From contig OZ023275.1 of NCBI GenBank assembly GCA_964007475.1, positions 17,215,829 to 17,279,828 on the forward strand: a stretch of 64,000 bases of DNA. The letters run 5' to 3'. The stretch comes from Hybos culiciformis. Taxonomy: Eukaryota > Arthropoda > Insecta > Diptera > Hybotidae. Position 1 is the stretch's first letter; every line of letters begins with the position of its first letter. Below the pieces are notes generated by a model. That model did no database searches. It saw nothing but the letters and a program-made list of their open reading frames with translations, and had not been told where the DNA came from. The position numbers were made by a program, and so were the translations under genes. Shown here one piece after another: positions 3,674-40,750 of the stretch.

Positions 3674-5354
3674 TAAGTATGATTAAGAGAAATAAATAAT
3701 ATCAATTTATTTCACTTTGATCCTATTTTAATTATATTTTATAATATTCGCCTGAAAAAAAAGGAAATATATGAATTATAATGATCATTCTATGGAAAGA
3801 ATTAACAAGAATCATTCTTAGACTCTTGCTTCTAGAACTCCAAGAACATAAAAAAAAATTGTACAACAACTACCTTTACAATTTTATTTTAACAATTATT
3901 AAAAATTAAGAGAATAGAATTAAATATAAGATTAATTAAGATCCAAATTAGAAGTCAAGGATTAAGGGTACGATTACATTGGTGCAGTGATAAACGATCT
4001 TCTCTATGATATATTATATTATTTATTTATTACATTGATTATTTCCCCTAAATGCTAGCTAGTATCGCAGATTTTTAAAATTATAACATCTATCAGTTAC
4101 TAACTTAAATACAATTTTTGCAAACATATTTCTAGAATAGATTTGTAAATTTTCTTTAAAAATATATTATTCACATTATCCACCATGAGAGATATGAAAT
4201 TTTGAAAAAATTTTTGTGACCTTATAGTCAATAAATTAGAAGAATATGTATATAAATCAAAAATTCATGAATTTATCAAAAAACTTAAAGATTGTTTTTT
4301 AGTTTCAAATTTTATTTTTATGGCTTCTGGTTAGAAATAAATGTGACCCCTAAACAACAGCTGCAGTTGAAGCCCAATATACTTGTTTAGAATTAGGCGC
4401 CAATTTAACGGGCGACATTTTTATTCATTTATTAATTTTTTTTATTTTAATTTTTTTCTAATTTTATTGATTTTTAATTTGTACTTTTCTTATAATAATT
4501 GCATAAATAATATATATATGTTAAAAAAAACTACTTATTTATGATTTCGTTTCACCTTTTTTTTATCGAATTCTTTTTCTTTAATTATATTTTTGGTGAC
4601 TTTTTAAATTCCACAAATAAATCAAAAAGCTATTTATCTTTAATTTTTTATTTTATTTCTACAATAATTATGCAAAAAAAAATATGCTCTGCATTATAAA
4701 AAACTTTGTATATAATATATACCTTAATATGCGATATATTTTTTTTTTAATTGATTCTTGATAGTCTATTTTTATATTTACACATATAATTTTTATTTAT
4801 TTTTTTTAAATTAATAGAGCTGAGCTATTTGGTTACTTATAATTATAAATTATATTTTGCATATAAATAAAATACATAATTTTTTTTATTTTTTTTGTTA
4901 ATATTTTTACCTATAGGTTTTTCTCAATTATAAATTAAAAATAAAATAAAAACAAAAATATAGATGTAAACGAAATTTCACTAAACAAAAAAAAAAAAAC
5001 AGATGTAGACCCAAGAGAAGACTAACTTTATCTAAAGCCAAAATTAAACTGATGTTTCTTTTCTCACATAAACAGAAAACATAAAAGAAATCAAAATATC
5101 ATTAAAAGAACAGAACAAAATTTACAAATTTTAATAATTTCGTTATTTTTTTTTTTTTTATTTGTATCTCACACATTCAAATAATCAGGAGAAAATATAG
5201 TCGGGAAACAAAATTGTACTTAATAAAATAAAATAAAAAAAAAAAAAAACAAAAATATTATATCTCAGAATATATTCAGTTTTCAGTTTTATGTTTTTTT
5301 TTTTTTTGTATTATTATTATTATTGTACGCTCTGCTCTGATGGTATATTTTCAA

Positions 5355-5375
5355 CATCATCATCATCATCATCAT
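5355..5375. repeat. (CAT)7 microsatellite
   Basis: Seven perfect CAT triplets in otherwise non-coding DNA. A preceding (TAT) run sits at about 5320-5335. Confidence 0.9.
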
Positions 5376-8151
5376 ACCCCTCGTAAATTTGAGCTTTGAT
5401 TGCAAATCTATAATCTATAGAAATAATATAGTATACTTATATACATTTATTTTAGGTATTTTTATTTCATAAATATTTATAGGATTGAATATATATAATA
5501 GTGTTCTACAATTGAAAAATTCTTCTTTTTTTTTTTAGGGTGACCAGAAAACGCATAATTAAAAGAGGTATGATATTCTACTATCTATGTAAATGAGATT
5601 ATGAAAAATAAAATTTTAAATTAGTATTAAAACTTATACTCTACAATAATTTTAATATTAGTTAAATTAATTATAAAATTTATAATAAATATATTTTTTA
5701 AATTATATTTTTATATATTAAGTATGATTGATAAAATTTTATACGATTTTTTTGTACTCAGCAATCTATTAGCCGTTAAGGGTTTTAAAAGAATATCTTG
5801 TTGAGGTAACACAACTTTTATGAGTTGGAATTAATTTTTTAGTTTAAGATAACCGATTTTTTGAAACTTACTTAATAAGCCTCGTAATAAGTTATTCATT
5901 ATTCCAAAGGTTTAATAATTTACATTTGGTCACCTTGAAAATTGGTAAAATAAATAATATTGAGTTAAAACTCATATTAAAATTTTGTAGGTATTTAGAA
6001 ATTGAAATAATATTTTGTCTTTCTTTCTTCAATAATAAGAAGCTAAAAATAATTATTTATGCGCTGTTCTTAAAATATTTTAATCTAAGCTAAACACATA
6101 AAAAATGAATGGAATATGGTAAAACACTGTTTTCCGTATTATTACACGTGTATTATGTTTTGTATCAAAAGTAATATTTTAAACTTTTGTTTTTGTATTA
6201 GAAATATGCCCAAATTAAAATAAAAAAAAAACAAATATCCTATTAATTTTATGGGGAATTTTATTTCTGCTTAGAAGGAGATGATGAATCAAAATATAAT
6301 ATTAAATGATTAAATCTATTTAAAATATTATGTAGGAATAGGAACATATAGTACGTATATGCATATTATGTACATGTTATACATTATTTACATAAGCACC
6401 TAGTTAATTTTTAGAGAATAACTAAAATTTTGAAAAATTTATTTCACTAATTCTAAACATGTCGAAAATTATTCTTATTATATTCATTTGTACATAGCTC
6501 ATCTAAAGTAATACTCAAATACAAACTCTGTAGTTGAACAAACTGTCGGTGCTAATAGAACTAAGGTAGTTACATACATATTGCTTATTATTTTTTCGTG
6601 TAAAAAAGTTTATAGTAATGTAATACTTAAAAAACTATTACAATATAAATCAATCCTAAAATAAATTTATTTAATATTTCAATTATGTGTAGTTTTAAAT
6701 ATTACTACATAAAAACTTCAAGTGACTTTTATAATAAACAAATTCTATTTATCATACAATTTTCTCTGTTTATAATTTTCAGTGTTTTTATTTTAAAGCT
6801 AGATGCGAGAATCTTTTTTATTTTTTTTTTTTAAAGAATTTTACATGGTACAAAAATAAATATTATAAAACTAGAAAAATACTTATTTCTCAAGAACAAC
6901 CTAAAATTGAAGTTTAAAAATAAACTTAAAAAAATTAATGTGAAAAAGAAAAATACATTTTCAAAACTGATTCCAATTAATGTGAAACAATATTTTCATT
7001 TTTGTAAAATAATTTTTTTTAGATACCTATCTATAGATAGGTGTAACTATGTGTAATTCAAGGTGTAATTATTTCTAGAATATTGATATTTTTATTGTAA
7101 GATTAAAATCTAACCCTTTTATTGAAGTATCATTTTAAAAGGTACGATCAGTATTTCCAATTGATAGACCAAGCATTAAAATGCACCCACGACATTGGAC
7201 TGGACTGTATAAAATAGTTCCCATTTTGAATTAAAATTGACTTCAAAAGAGAGCTGAATTTAAAAGATTTTTCTAATATCATCAGATTTATTAAAAACAA
7301 TCTTACAAACAAATTCCTCACTTAGAAAAATAAGAAATTACAAGACAGTATTTTGGGAAAACTCTACAAACTATTAACCGATAGAAAGAAAACAAATTGA
7401 ACTTTACAATGTAAATTGTTCAGTCATAATATACACATTTAAGCCTCAAAATCCAATACTTTAAAATAGAATCATGCAGATATTAAGGGAGACAAGAACT
7501 ATGTAGTTATATAAAAATTTAAACTTAAACATGGTGCTCCATGTTATTTTTCTATTCTTACTCATAATCGAATGTAAAAAGAAAAGTTTTTTTAAGACTT
7601 AAAAAAACTTCTTGCTTTATTATTCCTGAATTAACAAAAAAATTTGATTTTGTAGTGGTCTGATAAATTAAGAAAGTAACTCTTGAAAGTTTAATTAGGC
7701 TGTAAATTATGAGTTCTTCTAAGTATTCTCTAAAATCATAAAAATATGTATTAAGTAATTAATTTTTACTTATGTTCGTTATAAATGAATCATTTTATTT
7801 AAAACTTTTTTTTTCCTTTTCTACACCTTCAAAGGACGCTAAAATCCATGAGTTAATCAACAAAAAAAAATTCAAATTTTTATTCAACAAACTAATCAAT
7901 AAAAAGCAAATTTGAAGACCTTCTTTTAATAGATTTGAATATAAATATAATAATAATAACTAGTGATAAGTTTGATGAACATTTTGTTATAGTATTGAAT
8001 TATCCTCATTTACAACATTTCTATCCATATAATATTTATATTAGGTATATATTTGTATTGTACGTAATAATTTTAGAGTTTTATATAAATTATATCGTTT
8101 CTATGTGCATGTATACAAGAAAATCTTGAAATAAAATCTCCGTTTTGAATC

Positions 8152-31989: not shown

Positions 31990-32241
31990 TTCTCAATTGT
32001 TTATTTTAATTTTATATTAATAATTAAATAAATAAAATAAACAAAACTAAACAGAATTTGCAATAATTTAATTTTAATTGCAATTTGATTTGATTAAAAA
32101 AGTACAATTGTAATTTGTAAATAAAAACAAAATTATTTCACGTGCTTGCTTGTATTATTGTTTTTGCTGTCTTTTTAAGGTGCTTATAGACGAGTTAATC
32201 GTTTGATTTTGATATTTTATGAATGCCTACATGTTGAAAGA

Positions 32242-32363
32242 GGCGCAGTGAAATAAGACCGCGTGAAATAAGGCCGTGATAAGTTTTTTGTTGTGGTCTT
32301 ATTTCATTTTGAAAAATGAAATAAGACCGCAAAAAACTCCTCGCGGCCTTATTTCCATCCCCC
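32242..32363. mobile_element. Word-repeat foldback element, copy A, 9-bp target duplication
   Basis: It begins GGCGCAGTGAAATAAGACC and ends ATTTCCATCCCCC, flanked on both sides by GTTGAAAGA (32233-32241 and 32364-32372). The reverse complement of the right end, GGGGGATGGAAATAAGGCC, is an imperfect inverted repeat of the left end. The 122-base body is built from five copies of GAAATAAGACCGC or close variants, three in one orientation and two in the other, two of them forming a hairpin around CATTTTGAAAAATG. A 9-bp duplication fits Mutator-like or foldback elements. There is no coding capacity. Confidence 0.85.
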
Positions 32364-32450
32364 GTTGAAAGACAATGTTGAGTAGTGTGCAGCTGCAGTA
32401 ATGTTGAAAGACTTTTGAATGATATTAAAAGGCAATTTTTTCAACTTATA

Positions 32451-32854
32451 GGCTTAGTATGCTGACACAAAAAAAGTAGTACGCTGTGGAAAAAAATGAG
32501 ATTTTTCATATAAATTTTTGCTGCTGAAAAATGTTTGAAATTTTTTTTTTAGTTTTTGCTTTGTAGTACGCTCATAAAAAAAAAAAAATGTTTACTGGGT
32601 GACAAAAAATCTATTTTGCAGCTGCTTTTTTGCAAATATTTTTCTACCCAGGAACGGAAGATAAATGATTGCAAAAACTTGACATTACAAAAAAAGGTTT
32701 GTTTGATTTGTTTATTATTGGGTTAGAATAATAAAAAATTAATAAAAATAATCAGATGCTTGTGTCAAATAGTTGTCAAAATTTATCAAACATTTTTCAG
32801 ATATTTTTCAGTGATATTTTTTGCAACCTTTCTTTTTTCACAGCGTACTAAGCC
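32451..32854. mobile_element. Inner inverted-repeat element
   Basis: The left end GGCTTAGTATGCTG and the reverse complement of the right end GGCTTAGTACGCTGTGAAAA pair up. GTAGTACGCTGTGGAAAAAA near 32478-32497 and GTAGTACGCTC near 32564 repeat the end motif. A 3-base ATA flank on each side may be the target duplication. It is inserted inside the TTAA-flanked element. Confidence 0.6.
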
Positions 32855-34130
32855 ATAGTTTATACGTCTGTACGACCTGCAACAAGTTGGAAGACAAGTT
32901 GAAATATTCAACCCGTTTACAAGCACCTTAATGCAGAAAGACAACGTCGTTAAAATTTTGTCCGTCGGTCGATGTTAAAAAAATTTTAAAATTGGACGCG
33001 CGTTAAAATTCAGCAAAGCTTTATTCGATTTATTTTATCTTTAATAAACTGCTTGTTGAAAAAAAACAATAAAAAGAATGAAAAGAGTGAATTTCCTCAC
33101 GCGGCGTCTACTTGTGTCAGATACTTTCAGGTTTAACTCCACTGCATACTGGCAAAAATGACATTGACAAGCATAGTAGAAGAATTCATGGTAGGTTCAC
33201 TTAGAACAAAATTAATTTCAGTTTCTTAATGTGTTTCACCTTTCAACCACATGCGGCGCTCTTGTTTGTTTACGTTTTGTTTTATTGTCAACCCAGCCGG
33301 CTGAGCTTTTTTTCTTATTTATTCATTTTTTTGAAATAAAAGCATTTAGACGTGTAGGTGATTAATTTTGAGAAAAAAATAATTTGAATTTTATTAAAAA
33401 AAATTATAAACTGGATTTTTGAAAAACAATTTTAATTGAAGTTAAATTTTGAACTTATTTTAGAAAACAGACTAAATTATTATAAAAGTAATAGAAGATA
33501 TTATTTAAGAAAAAAAGAAACTGAATAAAAGTTGAATGTACATATTTGAATTTTAATTGTGGATTTTATTTAAAAAAAAACAAAAACAAAAACAAAGTTG
33601 GATTTATTGGAATTTAAGTTAATTTAAGATTATACATTTAATTTATTAATTAATAATCATTGCAATAAAATAAATAGAATTTTAAGTGAAAATGTTAGAA
33701 TTATATAAGTGATCAAATAGAAAAAAAATGCAATAATATATTTCAGAAAACATTTTATAAAAACTAAAAAAATTAAGAAAATAAAAAAATTGCTATAAAA
33801 ATAAATTTATCTTTTATTCATAATCTTCTTTTTTTCCTGCAAATTTGAATTTTAATAATTTTATTTGAAATATTAGAAATACTGCCACCTACAAAAATTT
33901 TATTTTTTTAGTTCACCTTCCCTCCACAAATCCATCAGGCGCTGTAGTAAATCTTTTGAGTGGGCCATCTATTACTATATCTTATCTATGGAAGAATTCT
34001 CTTCCAGGACTCCAGGTATAGGATTATAGAAACAGGACAACGGACATCGAATCACCCAGGACGACAAGATTTAAATTTAAAATTTATATTATTTTTATTT
34101 TTAATTAAATAAAAAGAAATTTATATAACT

Positions 34131-35075
34131 ATGGCAGCAAGATTATTAAGTGTTGGAAATAAATTTAATAAAATAATAAGTTCATTTAATGAAGCAAAAT
34201 TAAAAATTCAATTACCTGAACGTTTTAAAGGTACAATAATTGAAAAATGGGCAAAATACTGGAAGAGTTTAGGAACTGATTATCGAGAGGTAAGTCTTGC
34301 ATAAATAAGAAAGGATTGTTTTAGTTTTTAGTGTCCCCCCAGTTACCATTTCTAGTAATCGCAACTTTTAGATTCTGCAACTCAGTCACGATCAACCGGA
34401 CAATTGAGGACAACATAATTGTGATAATTGATGAATGTTAAAAAGGATCTGTTTTCCCTATTGTTACCAAGGTGCGATTACTAAGTATATTGTCATTTCT
34501 AACCATTTCCTATTGTATGTATTGGATCTTTGGCTATTTGATCCAGAAACACGAGAAAGAAAGCGGAGAAAACATTGTTCACTACAGTTCGACGGATCTC
34601 GAAATTATTTTTCATTACCTTGTACTTTTTCTTTTTTTAGGTATTTGTTGACTTGATCAAGGACGTTCGGGCTAAACCATTAAAAGCTTCAATTTATAGC
34701 GGAATGATTGCTTCAGTGTATGCATCTACCAAAAATAATCCAGAAATGATAGATTTCATAGATAGAATACGTTATTTTAATAATCAAATTTCTTTGGTAC
34801 ATGAAATTTGTCATAATCAAAACTCAGCAGAATATTTAAAATTTTTAGAACATTGTATAAATGAAGGTATTTTAAGACGCCTTTCTATTGGAATAATATC
34901 AGTTATATGGTTAGATAATTATGATCAAAATGTTGCACTCTACAAATCTGTTTGCCCTTACACAACAGTTGACTATTTAAAATTTCATGAGAGAATAATT
35001 GATATTGGGTTTTGGAATAGATGGTTTAAATTAGAACAAAATATGAAAGATTATGATGTAAATGTGCAATTGTAA
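34131..35075 (+). CDS. TIMM29: TIM29, mitochondrial TIM22-complex subunit
   Basis: Two exons (34131-34289 and 34641-35075) join in phase at CGAGAG|GTAAGT and TTTTTAG, giving 197 residues. The start MAARLLSVGNKFNKIISSFN is positively charged like a mitochondrial targeting region. LPERFKGTIIEKWAKYWKSL and YREVFVDLIKDVRAKPLKAS fit the conserved N-terminal part of Tim29 (DUF2366), followed by IYSGMIASVYASTKNNPEM, a weakly hydrophobic segment where the family has its membrane span. In animals Tim29 stabilises the TIM22 translocase, which inserts carrier proteins into the inner membrane. It is shorter than human TIMM29 (about 260), mostly at the C-terminus. AATAAA follows at 35089-35094. Family call is from memory of the pattern. 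Confidence 0.82.
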
Positions 35076-35503
35076 GAATAACTTTATTAATAAAAAATTT
35101 TAGTAAATTTAATTTTTTTTTTTAAATAAATTTAAATATCCGAAGTGTTATTTAACGCATAGTAGTTTTTAATTGGCATTATCATTCATACTTCAAACTT
35201 TGCTGGGTCGGACTCAGAACAGGAATTTACTCATTAAATATTTCGAATTTTTAGTATATTGAGAATTTAAATAACGATTAAAAGTGAATTCTGTTCCGAT
35301 TAATTCTATTATAATATTCTCTTTCTCGTTAATTGTAAAATTTTTATATATTACTTTTGTGAAACCGTTTTATTGTAAAACTATCAAATATCTGCTCAGC
35401 ACATTAAAGGAGCTAAAGAAAAAAATCCACTCTAAAGGTCTTAATTTAAAAAAAAACTTTAAATTAATTACTTATCTGGTTTTATTTATTCATCCATATT
35501 TTT
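35076..35503. other. Convergent 3' ends of TIM29 and the TAF1C-like gene
   Basis: The two genes run towards each other with 428 bases between their stops. The TIM29 AATAAA is at 35089-35094 and minus-strand AATAAA signals for the other gene are at 35481-35490. Nothing else is seen. Confidence 0.7.
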
Positions 35504-38500
35504 CTAAAAACCCATAACAAAATTAGTTTTTTTTTTCTTTTTTCTTGGAGGTTCTTTGTTTGATGTTAAAGTTTCATTAATACGTTTGACTGACTTATTT
35601 TTTATGCTTTGAAATGTTATATTTTCATTTAGTGATACTGAAGCTTCTTGTATTTTTAGCAAACTTTCTTCCAATACTATGGTTTGGGTTTCTTCTTTTA
35701 TAACATCATCATCGTTACTTGTTAAATTAAAATTGTTATTAACCATTGAATTATTTTCAATTTGTGTTGATGTTAAAATGTTTTCAAAATCAGGATCGTT
35801 ATCAAGATCCAACCAATTTTGAACTTTTGGGACTACACCAATTTTTTTCTTATGCCTAATATCATTAAACGACTCATTGTTGTCATCATTTTCGAGTTCT
35901 TTCTGTTTAATATCCCAAATTTCTAATAAACTTTGAGCAAGAACATCTTTGTATTGTGATAATTGTTTCATACTACGTTCCCATTTATATTTCCTATGAC
36001 GTTTATTAATAATTATTTCACTTTCGTCATCGATATCTTCATTAATCCTTGTTGAACTACTGAAATTTTTACAACGGGCTACTTTTAACACTCCTGATAA
36101 ATCACAATGATCAGTTACAGTCAATGAACATGGTTTTGAAGTAATATTATCTTTAATTTCATTATTATATCTAATCATAAATTTGGAATTAGACTTAATA
36201 TTGTCGGTATCATCAAAATCAAGTTTTTGATTAAATACATCACCTAAAAAAAATCGTGATTATCAGATTTTTCTATGAGTTATAGTTTTGGCTTTTAAAT
36301 CTATTTAAATTCATAAACCATTGTCACAAATGATTTTTTCGTTAAAAGCTAGCTGTGTAAATAAACATTAATGAAATTTAAAATTTACCTAAACTGTTTC
36401 CGAAAATAATACTAATTTGCTCATTACGTTTATAAAAATCAAGACCACATATAGAACGCTTTATTCGCATATCTAAATTTGTAATTGGATATAGGCACTC
36501 TCCCAAATTAGATTTTGTTTCTTGTAAAAAATCTGATAACGTAACTGGCATATATGGTAGACAATATGAAGCATAACGGACTTCGTCATTTTTAACTATT
36601 TTGTAATTTTCCATGCATCTGAAATCAGAATTTAACGGACTTGCGGCTGTAATAATCTCGTAATTTTCAACAAATTTGTTACTTTTTAGAATCAATGGTG
36701 GAAATTTCATCTGATGAGTCCAACGACTAGTTAACATTCTGCTATAATTGCTGTCTTCTGAACTTTTATTCATTGATACATATCTGGGGTCAATAGCTAA
36801 AATGTTATGTGTTGTACCCAAATACACACAATGTGCAAAATCACTAACAGCCATTGAAACAATATTCTCACAAGGGAATACATTTTCGGAAATCGTAAAG
36901 CTCTTTTTTATTTCATTAGGTCCCAATCGAAGATCTAATAAATAAAAATCTTTCATCGTTGTTAAAGCAAACAAATTATTTCCAAAATTGCGAAGACAAT
37001 TCCAATTTCCATTTTTTCCAATAGTTTTCAGTTGAAGAATATTTCTTTCTGGATTTTTTACAGATTCTTCTAAATTCCATAGTTTAATTGTTTTATCTAA
37101 ATCTCCAGTTAATAAAATTTCTAGTTGATTAGTATGTCTGGCTGATGTAATAAATGGAGGTGTCTTTTTTGTTTTTTCGCACTCAGGAATACATATTTCA
37201 TTATAAAGTTCATAGCTTTCGTCATATGAAAACAAAAATAGAGAATTTAACTGTCGAACGCAGTAATGATTTGAATTATTTTGAATTTCTAATATTTCAT
37301 TATGTTTTGATTCCGATGTTTTTAGTTGAAGCGATTTCAGTTCCTTAAGAATGTTTCGCTTATTTTGTTTTTTGAATCGTGATAAAACTAAAATTAGAAT
37401 AAATAATTATGTTAAATGAAATTCGTTTGATAGAGTACGATTCAAATCACTTGACCAATCCGTTATGCAAACCTTTCCCTTTCCATTACAATATTCCATA
37501 CAAAATTGCATGAGCTTTTTTTCGTAAATAATTTTCCCTAAATTTTGTATGGAATTTTGTATGGAATTTTGTAATGGAAAGGGAAAGCTTTGCATAACGG
37601 ATTGGTCAAGTGATTTGAATCGTACTCTATCTTTTTCGGAATAGATTTAGTCAACGATTACAAAAATTTGAACAAACATTTTATCTCTAAAAAATTCAAA
37701 ATCTGAGTGAACATACTTTTGATTGAATTTGTTGTTGTAAAATTATGAAAATCGCTATATAAATGTGATCAAGTATCTACATAATAAGGTATATATATTT
37801 AAAATTGTGGTTGCAAATTTAATATAAATATATTGGTATTCACCATGATTAATTTCATAATTATTTAGATTTTATCGAATTATGATGTACAATAAAAAAA
37901 ATTTTTTTAATTGGTTCCAGAACGAAGCATAAAATTCTTGATAGTTCAAAACAATATATCAATAACTATTTATTATGAATTATAACTACATATTTGTTTT
38001 ATTTTGGTTATGTACCTAAATTATTAAGGTTTTCACCATCGGCATGGCAAATTAAGTTTGAATCAGAGTCACAACATAAATTACCGCCACTGAAATACCA
38101 ATCATAAGTTCCGTTAAAATACGGATCTGGATTACACTCCAATAATTCGGCAATGTGAATGGCCATATGCGGATATATGTTATTTTTCTTCAATTTATTC
38201 TTTAATTTTTTTTTTTCTGTTGATAAATAAGAATTTGAATAAAAATTTAATTTTCGATTAAATTCATAATGAGCCATTGTTCTTTTGTAGCACACATCAA
38301 TATCTTTTGGTTTATTCTTTGACACTAGTATGGGCTCAGGTGCAATACATTTAAATAGTGGTCTTTCAGTTAAGAGTTTAGATTTTAATCCTGATAAGTT
38401 CGAATTAAAATTTGGAAATAACGAATGTGATATTCGATTTAACATAAATCCTTTAGGTTCAAATACATATTTTATGTTGTTATCAAGTTCTCGATTCTTA

Positions 38501-38954
38501 AAAAAAAAATTAAATATTATTTTAACTTTATTGTAATCTGTCTTTGGTAAATTTTTATGAATTTTGTTTTGCTTACAATACTTACATAGGTAGGTCGAAG
38601 GTATATAAAATATTTTATCTTACCTTCTCTTTTTTAGCTTGAGTCTCGGTATTTTTTTCTTCATTATCAACTATGGTCTTTTTAATTATTTTCTAAAAAA
38701 AATTATAATTTGGAAATAACTTAGGTACCTAGGTACTTAAAATTATAAATATCTTATTTTACCTTCTTTTTGTTTTGACGTTTAACTATTTTTTCATCCT
38801 CAACGACGACAACATCACTAGTCTAAAATTGGTAAACATAAAATTTGGTAGATACAAATAATGAAAGAAACAAATAGCATTTCTTCTAGTCGGGTCGCCT
38901 ACTTACGTTTTTTCTTTGAACAAAAGTTTTTTCGTTGGTTATAGATTGTTTCAT
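35504..38954 (-). CDS. TAF1C: TAF1C-like RNA polymerase I initiation factor (SL1 subunit), 6 exons
   Basis: Exons on the minus strand: 38907-38954, 38763-38822, 38624-38692, 38016-38496, 36389-37387, 35504-36243. All are in phase, giving about 798 residues. The first three exons are short, charged and low-complexity. A beta-propeller-like middle follows, with LTGDLDKTIKLWNLEESVKN, LRNFGNNLFALTTMKDFYLL, DLRLG and LGTTHNILAIDPRYVSMNKS. The basic tail ends PPRKKKKKTNFVMGF. This arrangement fits TAF1C/TAFI110, which in the SL1 complex places polymerase I on rDNA promoters. The start is uncertain: the ATG at 38954 lies 12 bases past a strong acceptor-like TTTTCAG, so an upstream coding exon may exist. 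A transposon sits in the intron at 37388-38015. Identification rests on weak patterns. Confidence 0.6.
37433..37627. mobile_element. Mariner-type MITE with near-perfect long arms
   Basis: The arms start GAGTACGATTCAAATCACTT and run about 75 bases with only about two mismatches to each other, around a short loop. TA dinucleotides flank both ends (37431-37432 and 37628-37629), the Tc1/mariner target. The copy is 195 bases, non-coding and inside the TAF1C-like intron. The near identity of the arms suggests recent insertion or an RNA hairpin under constraint. Confidence 0.85.
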
Positions 38955-39072
38955 TTCTTCATCACTGAAAACAAAGCCGGTGAAATTTACTTAAGATAAA
39001 ACTACACTACAGTATGTACCCAACGCCAACCAGTGTAGTTGCTTGGTTAGTGGATTGTGACTTTGTGACAAT

Positions 39073-39613
39073 CAGGGCTGCCAGATGGAATGAATGAAAT
39101 TTCCTCAAATTTTCAAGAAATTTCCCCAAAATAGACACTTTTTTAAAAAAATTCCTCAAATTTTTTTTTATATTTTTGTGTACTAAAATTTTTTTTTGCC
39201 CTAAATAAGAAAAAAAAAAAAATTGTATAACGGTCTTACTCACTTCTGTTTTTCCCCAAAAACAACTTAATTTTGCAAGATTTCCTCAAATTTTTAATGT
39301 GTTCAGATTTTATGCGGTACTTATATGTTGTAAATCAAAAAGTTTAGTTTCAACAATAGATTTTGAGTTCAACGTACGTAGAAGAATATGGTAATGATAT
39401 AAATTTCTTAAAATCATTAGGGTTTACTAGTCTGAAATTTTAAATATTATTGATTGCCAACGTTAGCACAATATTTCTGAATTTCTTCAAATTTTCCTCA
39501 GAAAAAAATATTTTCCTCAAGGTTTTCCCCACGTTTTTTTTTAACTTTTTTTTTCCCCCGAAATTAAAAATTTCCTCAGTTTGGGGAAAAAATTCCCCAA
39601 TCTGGCAGCCCTG
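39073..39613. mobile_element. hAT-superfamily non-autonomous element, intact 8-bp duplication
   Basis: Both ends read CAGGGCTGCCAGAT inwards (14 identical bases). The flanks are GTGACAAT at 39065-39072 and again at 39614-39621, a perfect 8-bp target duplication as hAT transposases make. The 541-base body is rich in TTTCCTCAAATTTTC and TTTCCCCA motifs on both sides and codes for nothing recognisable. Confidence 0.9.
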
Positions 39614-39808
39614 GTGACAATTCTCAACGCATGCACTACACACGCTGACACGCAACGCATTGCCTCAATTATGACTAGGTTAAACCCGAAAATAAAGTCG
39701 TAACTGGCACGAAGGAACGCCGCGCAATAATGTCGAGTCCCTAACATTCGTAAATTTCATATTTTTTCGGTCCATTTCAACTCAATGAAATTAATTCAGT
39801 TTTCATGG

Positions 39809-40201
39809 GGCGCAGTGACATTTGTCCGCGATGAAATTTGTATGGAAAACTTCGCGGACAAATGTCATTTTGCAAAATGTCATTTGTCCGCGATTGTAAA
39901 ATGACATTTGTCCGCCGCGGACAAAAGTTTCAAAATTAGCGGACAAATGACATTTTGCAAAATGACATTTGTCCGCGATTGAATTTTCTAACTTTAGCGG
40001 ACAAATGTCATTTTGCAAAATGTCATTTGTCCGCGATTGATTTTTCAGTTTTTTTAGCGGACAAATGTCATTTTGCAAAATGTCATTTGTCCGCGATTAA
40101 TTTTCAGATTTTTAGCGGACAAAAGACATTTCGAATCGCGGACAAGTGTCATTTTTATGTCCGCGATACAAAAACAAATCGCGGACAAATGTCCAACCCC
40201 C
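39809..40201. mobile_element. Word-repeat foldback element, copy B, 9-bp target duplication
   Basis: It begins GGCGCAGTGACATTTGTCCG and ends GACAAATGTCCAACCCCC, flanked by TTTTCATGG at 39800-39808 and 40202-40210. The reverse complement of the right end, GGGGGTTGGACATTTGTCCG, matches the left end. The 393-base body carries about fifteen copies of ACATTTGTCCGCG, complete or trimmed, alternating in orientation. Several are fused as head-to-head palindromes around CATTTTGCAAAATG, spaced by short AT-rich linkers. Open frames across it simply translate the word. This is the longer of two family members in the window. Confidence 0.9.
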
Positions 40202-40750
40202 TTTTCATGGAGCCCAACTCGAGTATCGAATTTAACCCGAAGTTATCTAACACTGAAACGTTAATAATTATAGTATTATTGACAATGAAATGGTACCCTT
40301 GTCATTTGGGAATATATATTTTTTTTTGGTATATTTTTATTTATTAACTATTTTCCAAACGTTACCTTTTTTCAACCCAATAGCTAACAATGCTTACATT
40401 AATTTTCAATACCTGTCACTTTACAAAAAGAAATGTTTAACTTACAACTCTTTTTGTTAGATACAGACCAATATTATTTCTACTATCCAGTAAAGGGTTA
40501 AATACAATTGTCAAAAAACGATTAAAATTAAATATTATAAATAATTAACAATAACAAACAGTTCAATACTAGTCTAGTGTCTAGTCTGTGTAATAGATAG
40601 ATATTCCTTTCTTCCTATATTTATATTGGCCCAACGTTAACCATACAAGCTAAAAATATTTGTATCTCCTTTGGATTTTGTTAGTTTTTAGATATCAGCC
40701 ATCAAGAGATTTTAATTCATCATTAAAGAGATTTTCATTCATCGTATAAA

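Follow-up and report, generated by a model that had tools for sequence, protein, structure and literature searches.

Near-constant ends and a family-specific repeated word in two sister foldback transposon families of Hybos culiciformis

The window analysed here is a stretch of 64,000 nucleotides from the genome of the hybotid fly Hybos culiciformis (positions 17215829-17279828 of contig C3; source genome 342 Mb in 509 contigs). It contains two short foldback elements, one of 122 bp (element A) and one of 393 bp (element C), with nearly the same ends and different internally repeated words. This raises the question of whether the word belongs to the individual element or to a family of elements, and what function such a word might have. 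The two elements, their hairpin centres and the two words had been described from the window alone (the sequence-only reading) and were all confirmed in the sequence; the rule drawn there from two elements, a word private to each element, holds at the level of the family, the word being a family trait and not an element trait. The window probably contains one member each of two sister non-autonomous, cut-and-paste foldback families of Mutator/Phantom-like type, A and C, in which the word would serve as a docking point for the transposase of that family.

Two families, each with one word

The window elements have the left end GGCGCAGTGA in common, their right ends are TCCATCCCCC (A) and TCCAACCCCC (C), and their hairpin centres are CATTTTGAAAAATG and CATTTTGCAAAATG, respectively. 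Family A (word GAAATAAGGCCGCG) and family C (word GACATTTGTCCGCG) each have hundreds of copies in the genome. Among 243 words in 14 A elements and 158 words in 8 C elements, none was of the other kind at two or fewer mismatches; at three mismatches there was one C-like match, in the A-family locus L013 (L-numbers denote individual loci pulled from the source genome). The 14 A elements have one common word and the 8 C elements another. No mixed element was found, in agreement with the sequence-only reading. Nowhere in the genome do exact copies of the A and the C word face each other over a spacer of 2-32 nt (0 on both strands), while the controls gave 3335 and 3338 cases of A facing A and 5317 and 5317 of C facing C, the two strand counts describing largely the same pairs. 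The search for a third word (the pattern required GTG followed by A, the tail CCGCG and, as the third variable letter, anything but the T that both words have there) returned three matches, each mutant-like and close to the A or the C word; a third word with T at that position or with another tail would escape the pattern. Within the reach of that pattern, a third word behind the same ends was rejected.

The words had been described as different except for the CCGCG tail. As 14-mers, they are identical at 10 of 14 positions and differ at positions 3, 6, 7 and 9; at the best cyclic shift the similarity is 11/15 (P 0.0004 by shuffling). The window C element contains 14 word copies at three or fewer mismatches, 13 of them at two or fewer, and its hairpin array has a unit spacing of 85, 58 and 60 bp. 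The five copies in the window A element are not uniform, being GAAATAAGACCGCG, GAAATAAGGCCGTG, GAAATAAGACCACA, GAAATAAGACCGCA and GAAATAAGGCCGCG.

The ends, described previously as constant, are near-constant, with a one-letter difference at each end between the families: GGCGCAGT...CATCCCCC in A and normally GGCGCCGT...CAACCCCC in C. Exact matches to GGCGCAGTGA number 360 + 340 on the two strands compared with 6 + 11 for the reversed control, so it is not a chance string. In the first 63 matches listed, all on contig C1, A-type words (some decayed) come next at 60, the C word at two and neither at one; locus L029, with GGCGCAGTGA and no words, was rejected as a chance match. The C-family end pattern, which matches GGCGCCGT only with one mismatch, has 685 + 686 genome matches at one or fewer mismatches (control, 0). 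The 100 C-pattern matches listed, all exact, comprise 97 right ends GGGGGTTG, two GGCGCAGT and one GGCGCTGT; GGCGCCGT is present at all eight left ends found at the first ten matches listed, the other two places having none. The window C element, with GGCGCAGT, is thus a rare form (2 among the 100 C-pattern matches listed), and since the usual C left end is GGCGCCGT, the occurrence of GGCGCAGTGA in both window elements is partly luck.

Both window elements are flanked by exact 9-bp duplications, although a third copy of GTTGAAAGA at 32403-32411 shows that this 9-mer is locally repeated anyway. Genome copies were paired by taking a right end with one or no mismatch within 1.6 kb and a duplication with three or fewer mismatches, keeping the best partner. 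In this way 22 of 33 left ends were paired, 18 with exact 9-bp duplications, three with one mismatch and one with two; the pairing rule favours agreement, so the exact class (18/22) is the telling figure. These copies support the earlier assignment to foldback-type DNA elements with 9-bp target duplications. Among the unpaired left ends, L010 and L019 have an exact duplication if the right end is taken one base shorter, as does L025 with one mismatch; L030 and L033 have an offset of one base, and L021 has the right end CCATCCCTC without a matching duplication. No right end was found within 7 kb at L009, L014 and L015, or in the stretch fetched on that side at L040 and L041. A complete A element of 239 bp (L058) lies near a match to a Mutator-like element (MULE) transposase.

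At 11 of 40 sampled A left ends (L081, L083, L084, L088, L090, L094, L096, L098, L100, L101 and L115), and at L019, GTGGAGGTMTAATTTCATG replaces the usual second word. At L088, L096 and L100, the three loci at which the flank was read beyond its first base, it is gcRctagggc, resembling that of L019. One A insertion seems to have multiplied inside another repeat, and A-end counts therefore overstate the number of independent insertions. A pattern for the A or C left end had no match on viral contigs.

The sequence-only reading had words spreading through each element by gene conversion or hairpin-primed copying, which would keep element-specific words uniform. Every element read is uniform in word type, and the four positions that distinguish the A from the C word are the same in copy after copy, as this would require. 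However, when elements with 12 or more words (11 of A, 7 of C) were compared over six word positions from each end, the mean number of differences was 0.80 (A) and 1.15 (C) between words at the same position of different elements, 1.10 and 1.43 between positions of the same element, and 1.10 and 1.42 when both element and position differed. With element labels shuffled within positions, values at or below the observed were obtained in 288 of 500 (A) and 336 of 500 (C) shuffles, so that within-element likeness is no greater than in the shuffles. Words agree by position across elements and not within an element, and conversion inside elements is therefore not supported; the words are inherited together with the whole element. 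The spacers are repeated along with the words, a pattern that points to duplication of units. Within A, and likewise within C, the genome copies have a single word in common, the outcome that had been named as contrary to the rule. For the sampled copies element-specific words are rejected, and homogenisation within each element is considered highly improbable.

The relationship between the families was examined in L022 (A, 739 bp) and L026 (C, 1008 bp). Their central G+C-rich palindromes are 77.6% identical over 116 columns (E 1.7e-23), and their hairpin arrays are 64-70% identical in alignments of at least 150 columns, in several registers and both orientations. In the first 39 bases all differences lie inside two word copies, the left end of L026 being A-like. 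The spacers are family-specific, with about 12 nt in a 50-bp unit in A and about 21 nt in a 58-59-bp unit in C. Spacer likeness, in three elements per family, is 0.50-0.57 within an element and, between families, 0.42 for any slot, 0.47 when slot-matched and 0.39 when shuffled. Each family seems to have expanded its hairpin-plus-spacer units in tandem. We read this as the descent of A and C from a common ancestor with these ends and this centre; the word would have been altered in the founders of A and C, and separate tandem growth of the units would presumably have followed.

The word as a putative transposase docking site

Each element has asymmetric 8-bp G-rich ends with a word of about 14 bp just inside them, longer copies adding opposed word pairs (hairpins) around a central palindrome. 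In the proposed mechanism, by analogy, a transposase specific to the family and supplied in trans would dock at the repeated word and would cut and join at the outermost bases; a 9-bp stagger at insertion would produce the 9-bp duplication. This explanation is favoured because of the analogy with local transposase-coding families, Tm1, Muta1 and the Galileo footprint. A and C have the 9-bp duplications of Phantom-type Mutator/Foldback elements (8-10 bp, usually 9) and, like these, asymmetric outer motifs (GGCGCAGT or GGCGCCGT at one end, GGGGGATG or GGGGGTTG at the other) followed by repeated units of about 14 bp. No A or C transposase was found among the MULE loci inspected, and the families are not filed as proven Phantom members.

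The MULE transposase domain has at least 145 matches in the genome, of which 33 loci were inspected, 16 by one flank, and 13 frames were scanned with Pfam. Nine loci (L043-L048, L050, L051 and L057) encode FLYWCH and MULE domains (Phantom-type), the combination expected of autonomous Phantom-type copies, L053 and L055 the MULE domain alone, and L042 and L049 ZSWIM-type MULEs. Repeated words were read at ten of the coding loci (Table 1), with further word arrays at L062-L064, L067, L068, L073 and L076; no clear word was read at L042, L047, L049, L052, L054, L056, L059-L061, L069-L072, L074 and L075. The transposase-coding families follow the same plan as A and C, and within these families the words keep their place and orientation. 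Of eight MULE elements tested, seven have asymmetric ends flanked by exact duplications of 8-10 bp, and L046 has none; the chance of an 8-mer match with a shuffled flank is 0.02-0.125, which makes the A-rich duplication of L050 weak.

L044 and L050/L053 have the end GGGTTGGGTACG in common and a similar other end (GGGAGCGGTACG, GGGAGTGTCACG) but different words (CATTTCACTGTATTT, AAAATCCCAAAAATT); between L044 and L050 the FLYWCH identity is 25% compared with 62% for the MULE domain. FLYWCH was less conserved than MULE in all 12 within-clade pairs. Across eight families, word similarity correlates with transposase similarity (Mantel r 0.42, 257/40320 permutations), which is consistent with a change of word and transposase together. 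The word closest to that of C is the L048 word (11/15, 0/2000 shuffles), while the A word reaches 8/15 at best with any MULE-family word and is not close.

The word might instead be a by-product, with hairpin arrays growing by slippage or fold-back repair and the family differences being drift homogenised by array turnover. Both families have single and double terminal word copies (15-bp duplications), array size varies from 5 to 30 words, and near-perfect palindromes recur among MULE families, all of which would suit such growth. By contrast, short elements (the 122-bp window A element and the 239-bp L058) retain the word directly inside both ends, the position and orientation of the words are constant within transposase-coding families, and the words vary with the transposases as described above. 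A by-product is therefore considered unlikely.

It is also conceivable that A and C are moved by a transposase of another superfamily, as is the P-type Galileo, and not by a MULE. An autonomous Mutator-like copy with the same ends, suggested earlier as something to look for, was not found: none of the 33 inspected loci had a transposase-coding element with A or C words. However, A and C match seven local MULE elements with 8-10-bp duplications in the length of the duplication (9 bp), in their asymmetric G-rich ends and in their inward words, and the C word is closest to a MULE-family word; no search for other superfamilies was made. A transposase of another superfamily is considered improbable.

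Several points weigh against docking by a family-specific MULE-type transposase, beginning with the negative outcome for a coding copy of A or C among the 33 loci. L042, L045, L046, L047 and L074 each have one A/C-word match, at three mismatches. L049 has clear A words nearby, in a single A-type hairpin (178-240) upstream of its ZSWIM-type MULE frame at a distance of about 1.9 kb; the hairpin is missing from L052, where the frame start is identical, and it is probably an unrelated insertion. The words of the MULE families were identified by visual inspection of the arrays. The correlation between word and transposase is not specific to FLYWCH (r 0.45, 624/40320) compared with the MULE domain (r 0.41, 743/40320), it rests largely on two deep clades, and the pair L046-L050 contradicts it, with words 12/15 alike and a FLYWCH identity of 33%. 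The mixing search covered exact words facing each other across a spacer, with A-C hybrids inside one hairpin outside it. The identity of slot-matched A and C spacers is 47%, compared with 39% after shuffling, which does not demonstrate that the arrays are of collinear ancestry.

With these points weighed, docking of a family-specific, Mutator/Phantom-like transposase at the word is still the probable reading. A broader scenario is possible, although we hold it only tentatively and with more doubt than confidence. Phantom-type transposons of this genome may have diversified into more than ten families through joint changes of the docking word and the transposase domain that reads it, with the outermost cutting ends kept nearly constant; a new word would be fixed when full arrays are regenerated from short, few-copy seed elements. 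On this view, A and C would represent one such split, with the common ends and centre still visible and with a word-and-reader code that may block mutual mobilisation.

Features of the window and of the MULE loci

The coordinates of the features are given in Table 1. A 135-residue open frame crosses the C element (window 39940-40347, + strand) with repeated DKCHFAKCHLSA; we take it to be a by-product of the word array and not a gene. In 8 of 11 transposase-coding MULE loci a palindrome of about 90-310 bp is situated close to one of the end arrays; six of the eight are 5' of the gene, and four have (GC)n centres. L044 contains, at 906-1133, a second, different foldback-like array with a word like GACATAAAGTCAATT and the end CACCCCCCC.

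At L009 and L014 no recognisable transposase was found among frames of at least 70 residues. L015 contains a 313-residue frame (5051-5989) with DDE_1 and HTH_Tnp_Tc5 domains, a Tc1/pogo-like transposase about 4.8 kb downstream of the left end; as a candidate A transposase it was rejected, being taken for an unrelated element, with no A words nearby. The same locus has an open METTL16 frame (U6 methyltransferase; Methyltransf_10) at 301-1330, about 100 bp downstream of a decayed A-type left end. The six best matches of the METTL16 frame are from flies (48-51% identity, the top one from Condylostylus longicornis) and the seventh is from a bee (52%).

Table 1 Coordinates of the two window elements and their parts, and words and palindromes of the MULE loci.
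Feature	Position	Strand	Remark
Left target-site duplication GTTGAAAGA, element A	32233..32241	.	exact repeat at 32364-32372
Family A foldback element, 122 bp, five word copies	32242..32363	+	family defined by genome copies
Left terminal motif GGCGCAGT, element A	32242..32249	+	sequence
Word copy GAAATAAGACCGCG, element A	32250..32263	+	
Word copy GAAATAAGGCCGTG, element A	32265..32278	+	
Word copy GAAATAAGACCACA, central hairpin left arm, element A	32292..32305	-	
Word copy GAAATAAGACCGCA, central hairpin right arm, element A	32318..32331	+	
Terminal word copy GAAATAAGGCCGCG, element A	32342..32355	-	
Right terminal motif, element A, inward reading GGGGGATG	32356..32363	-	sequence
Right target-site duplication GTTGAAAGA, element A	32364..32372	.	
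Left target-site duplication TTTTCATGG, element C	39800..39808	.	sequence
Family C foldback element, 393 bp	39809..40201	+	family defined by genome copies
Left terminal motif GGCGCAGT, element C	39809..39816	+	other C copies usually GGCGCCGT
Terminal word copy GACATTTGTCCGCG, element C	39817..39830	+	
Hairpin array, element C	39853..40150	.	opposed word pairs about CATTTTGCAAAATG, A+T-rich spacers
Terminal word copy GACATTTGTCCGCG, element C	40180..40193	-	
Right terminal motif, element C, inward reading GGGGGTTG	40194..40201	-	
Right target-site duplication TTTTCATGG, element C	40202..40210	.	
MULE-family word CAATTCACCGTATGG	L043		repeated at L065
MULE-family word CAATTCATCGTAAAT	L045		repeated at L066
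MULE-family word ACATTTGTTCGTAAA	L048		
MULE-family word ACTTTTGTTCGTAAA	L051		
MULE-family word CATTTCACTGTATTT	L044		
MULE-family word AAAATCCCGGAAATC	L046		
MULE-family word AAAATCCCAAAAATT	L050/L053		
MULE-family word AAAATCTTGTTTTTT	L057		
MULE-family word AATTCCACTAGGCAC	L055		
Palindrome	L044 3668-3764		
Palindrome	L045 3338-3531		
Palindrome	L046 1076-1171		
Palindrome	L047 1319-1629		
Palindrome	L050 1212-1403		
Palindrome	L051 1147-1343		
Palindrome	L055 1264-1356		
Palindrome	L057 3217-3398		

Significance and comparison with known systems

A and C are a real, tidy sister foldback pair, known in kind, and otherwise ordinary families resembling miniature inverted-repeat transposable elements. 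How sister transposon families in one genome avoid cross-mobilising is an open question, on which two families with hundreds of copies each, a four-position word difference, 5-30 words per element and no mixed copy found have a bearing. Together with about a dozen MULE-linked word families, they form a natural series for comparing binding word, ends and transposase sequence.

The nearest comparison is within the same genome. Like A and C, the local MULE elements have their own repeated word of about 15 bp (unclear at L047), asymmetric ends and, in seven of eight, 8-10-bp duplications; unlike A and C, they encode a transposase, and their words are other than those of A and C. The FB/NOF foldback elements of Drosophila resemble A and C in having 9-bp duplications and internally repetitive fold-back ends.

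The earlier statement that no described family follows such a rule was too strong, since Tm1 (PMC3169594), Muta1/Muta5 (PMC5225508) and Galileo (PMC3688188) are comparable, and no claim is made here that constant ends with a family-specific word are absent from print. Rehavkus is defined by 9-bp duplications, a PHD-finger transposase and a minisatellite before the 3' end (PMC6446971). The terms foldback, subterminal, tandem repeat and Phantom do not occur in the main text of a 2026 arthropod MULE survey (PMC13359780).

Tm1 of Meloidogyne is a Phantom-class Mutator/Foldback family with 7-bp outer motifs that differ between the ends, followed by GGA and 1-9 tandem Motif C units of about 14 bp (CGATTCAGTATCGC in M. 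incognita); its duplications are 9 bp, its copies are mostly non-autonomous and the Motif C consensus varies between species (PMC3169594). A and C likewise have asymmetric outer motifs, repeated units of about 14 bp and 9-bp duplications. In contrast to Tm1, they carry their words mostly as opposed pairs that make up hairpins along the entire element, one genome contains the two sister words side by side, and no coding copy was found here.

The Muta families of Aedes aegypti have 8-9-bp duplications, a terminal motif of 10 bp in Muta1 and 8 bp in Muta5, and 9-15-bp subterminal tandem repeats in 10 of 12 long-ended families; in Muta1 and Muta5 the terminal motif is accompanied by subterminal repeats of 12-15 bp, and Muta1 has more than 300 putative derivatives, often with variable repeat number (PMC5225508). 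A and C resemble Muta1 in having a terminal motif plus short subterminal repeats and a similar duplication length. Unlike A and C, Muta1 has an identified active transposase, and shared ends with exchanged words are not described for the Muta families in the available part of that paper (PMC5225508).

Galileo of Drosophila, a P-type transposon, has foldback ends in which about 40 bp of terminal sequence is conserved between families (PMC3573991, PMC3688188). The binding site identified by footprinting is internal and is found again in the repeats of the subfamily to which it belongs (PMC3688188), and binding to the ends of other subfamilies was weak or absent in most tests (PMC3688188, PMC3573991). 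It differs from A and C in its P-type transposase, a kind with a THAP domain, and in its much longer ends. The target duplication of Galileo is 7 bp. Like Galileo, A and C have a foldback structure, near-common ends and family-specific inner words.

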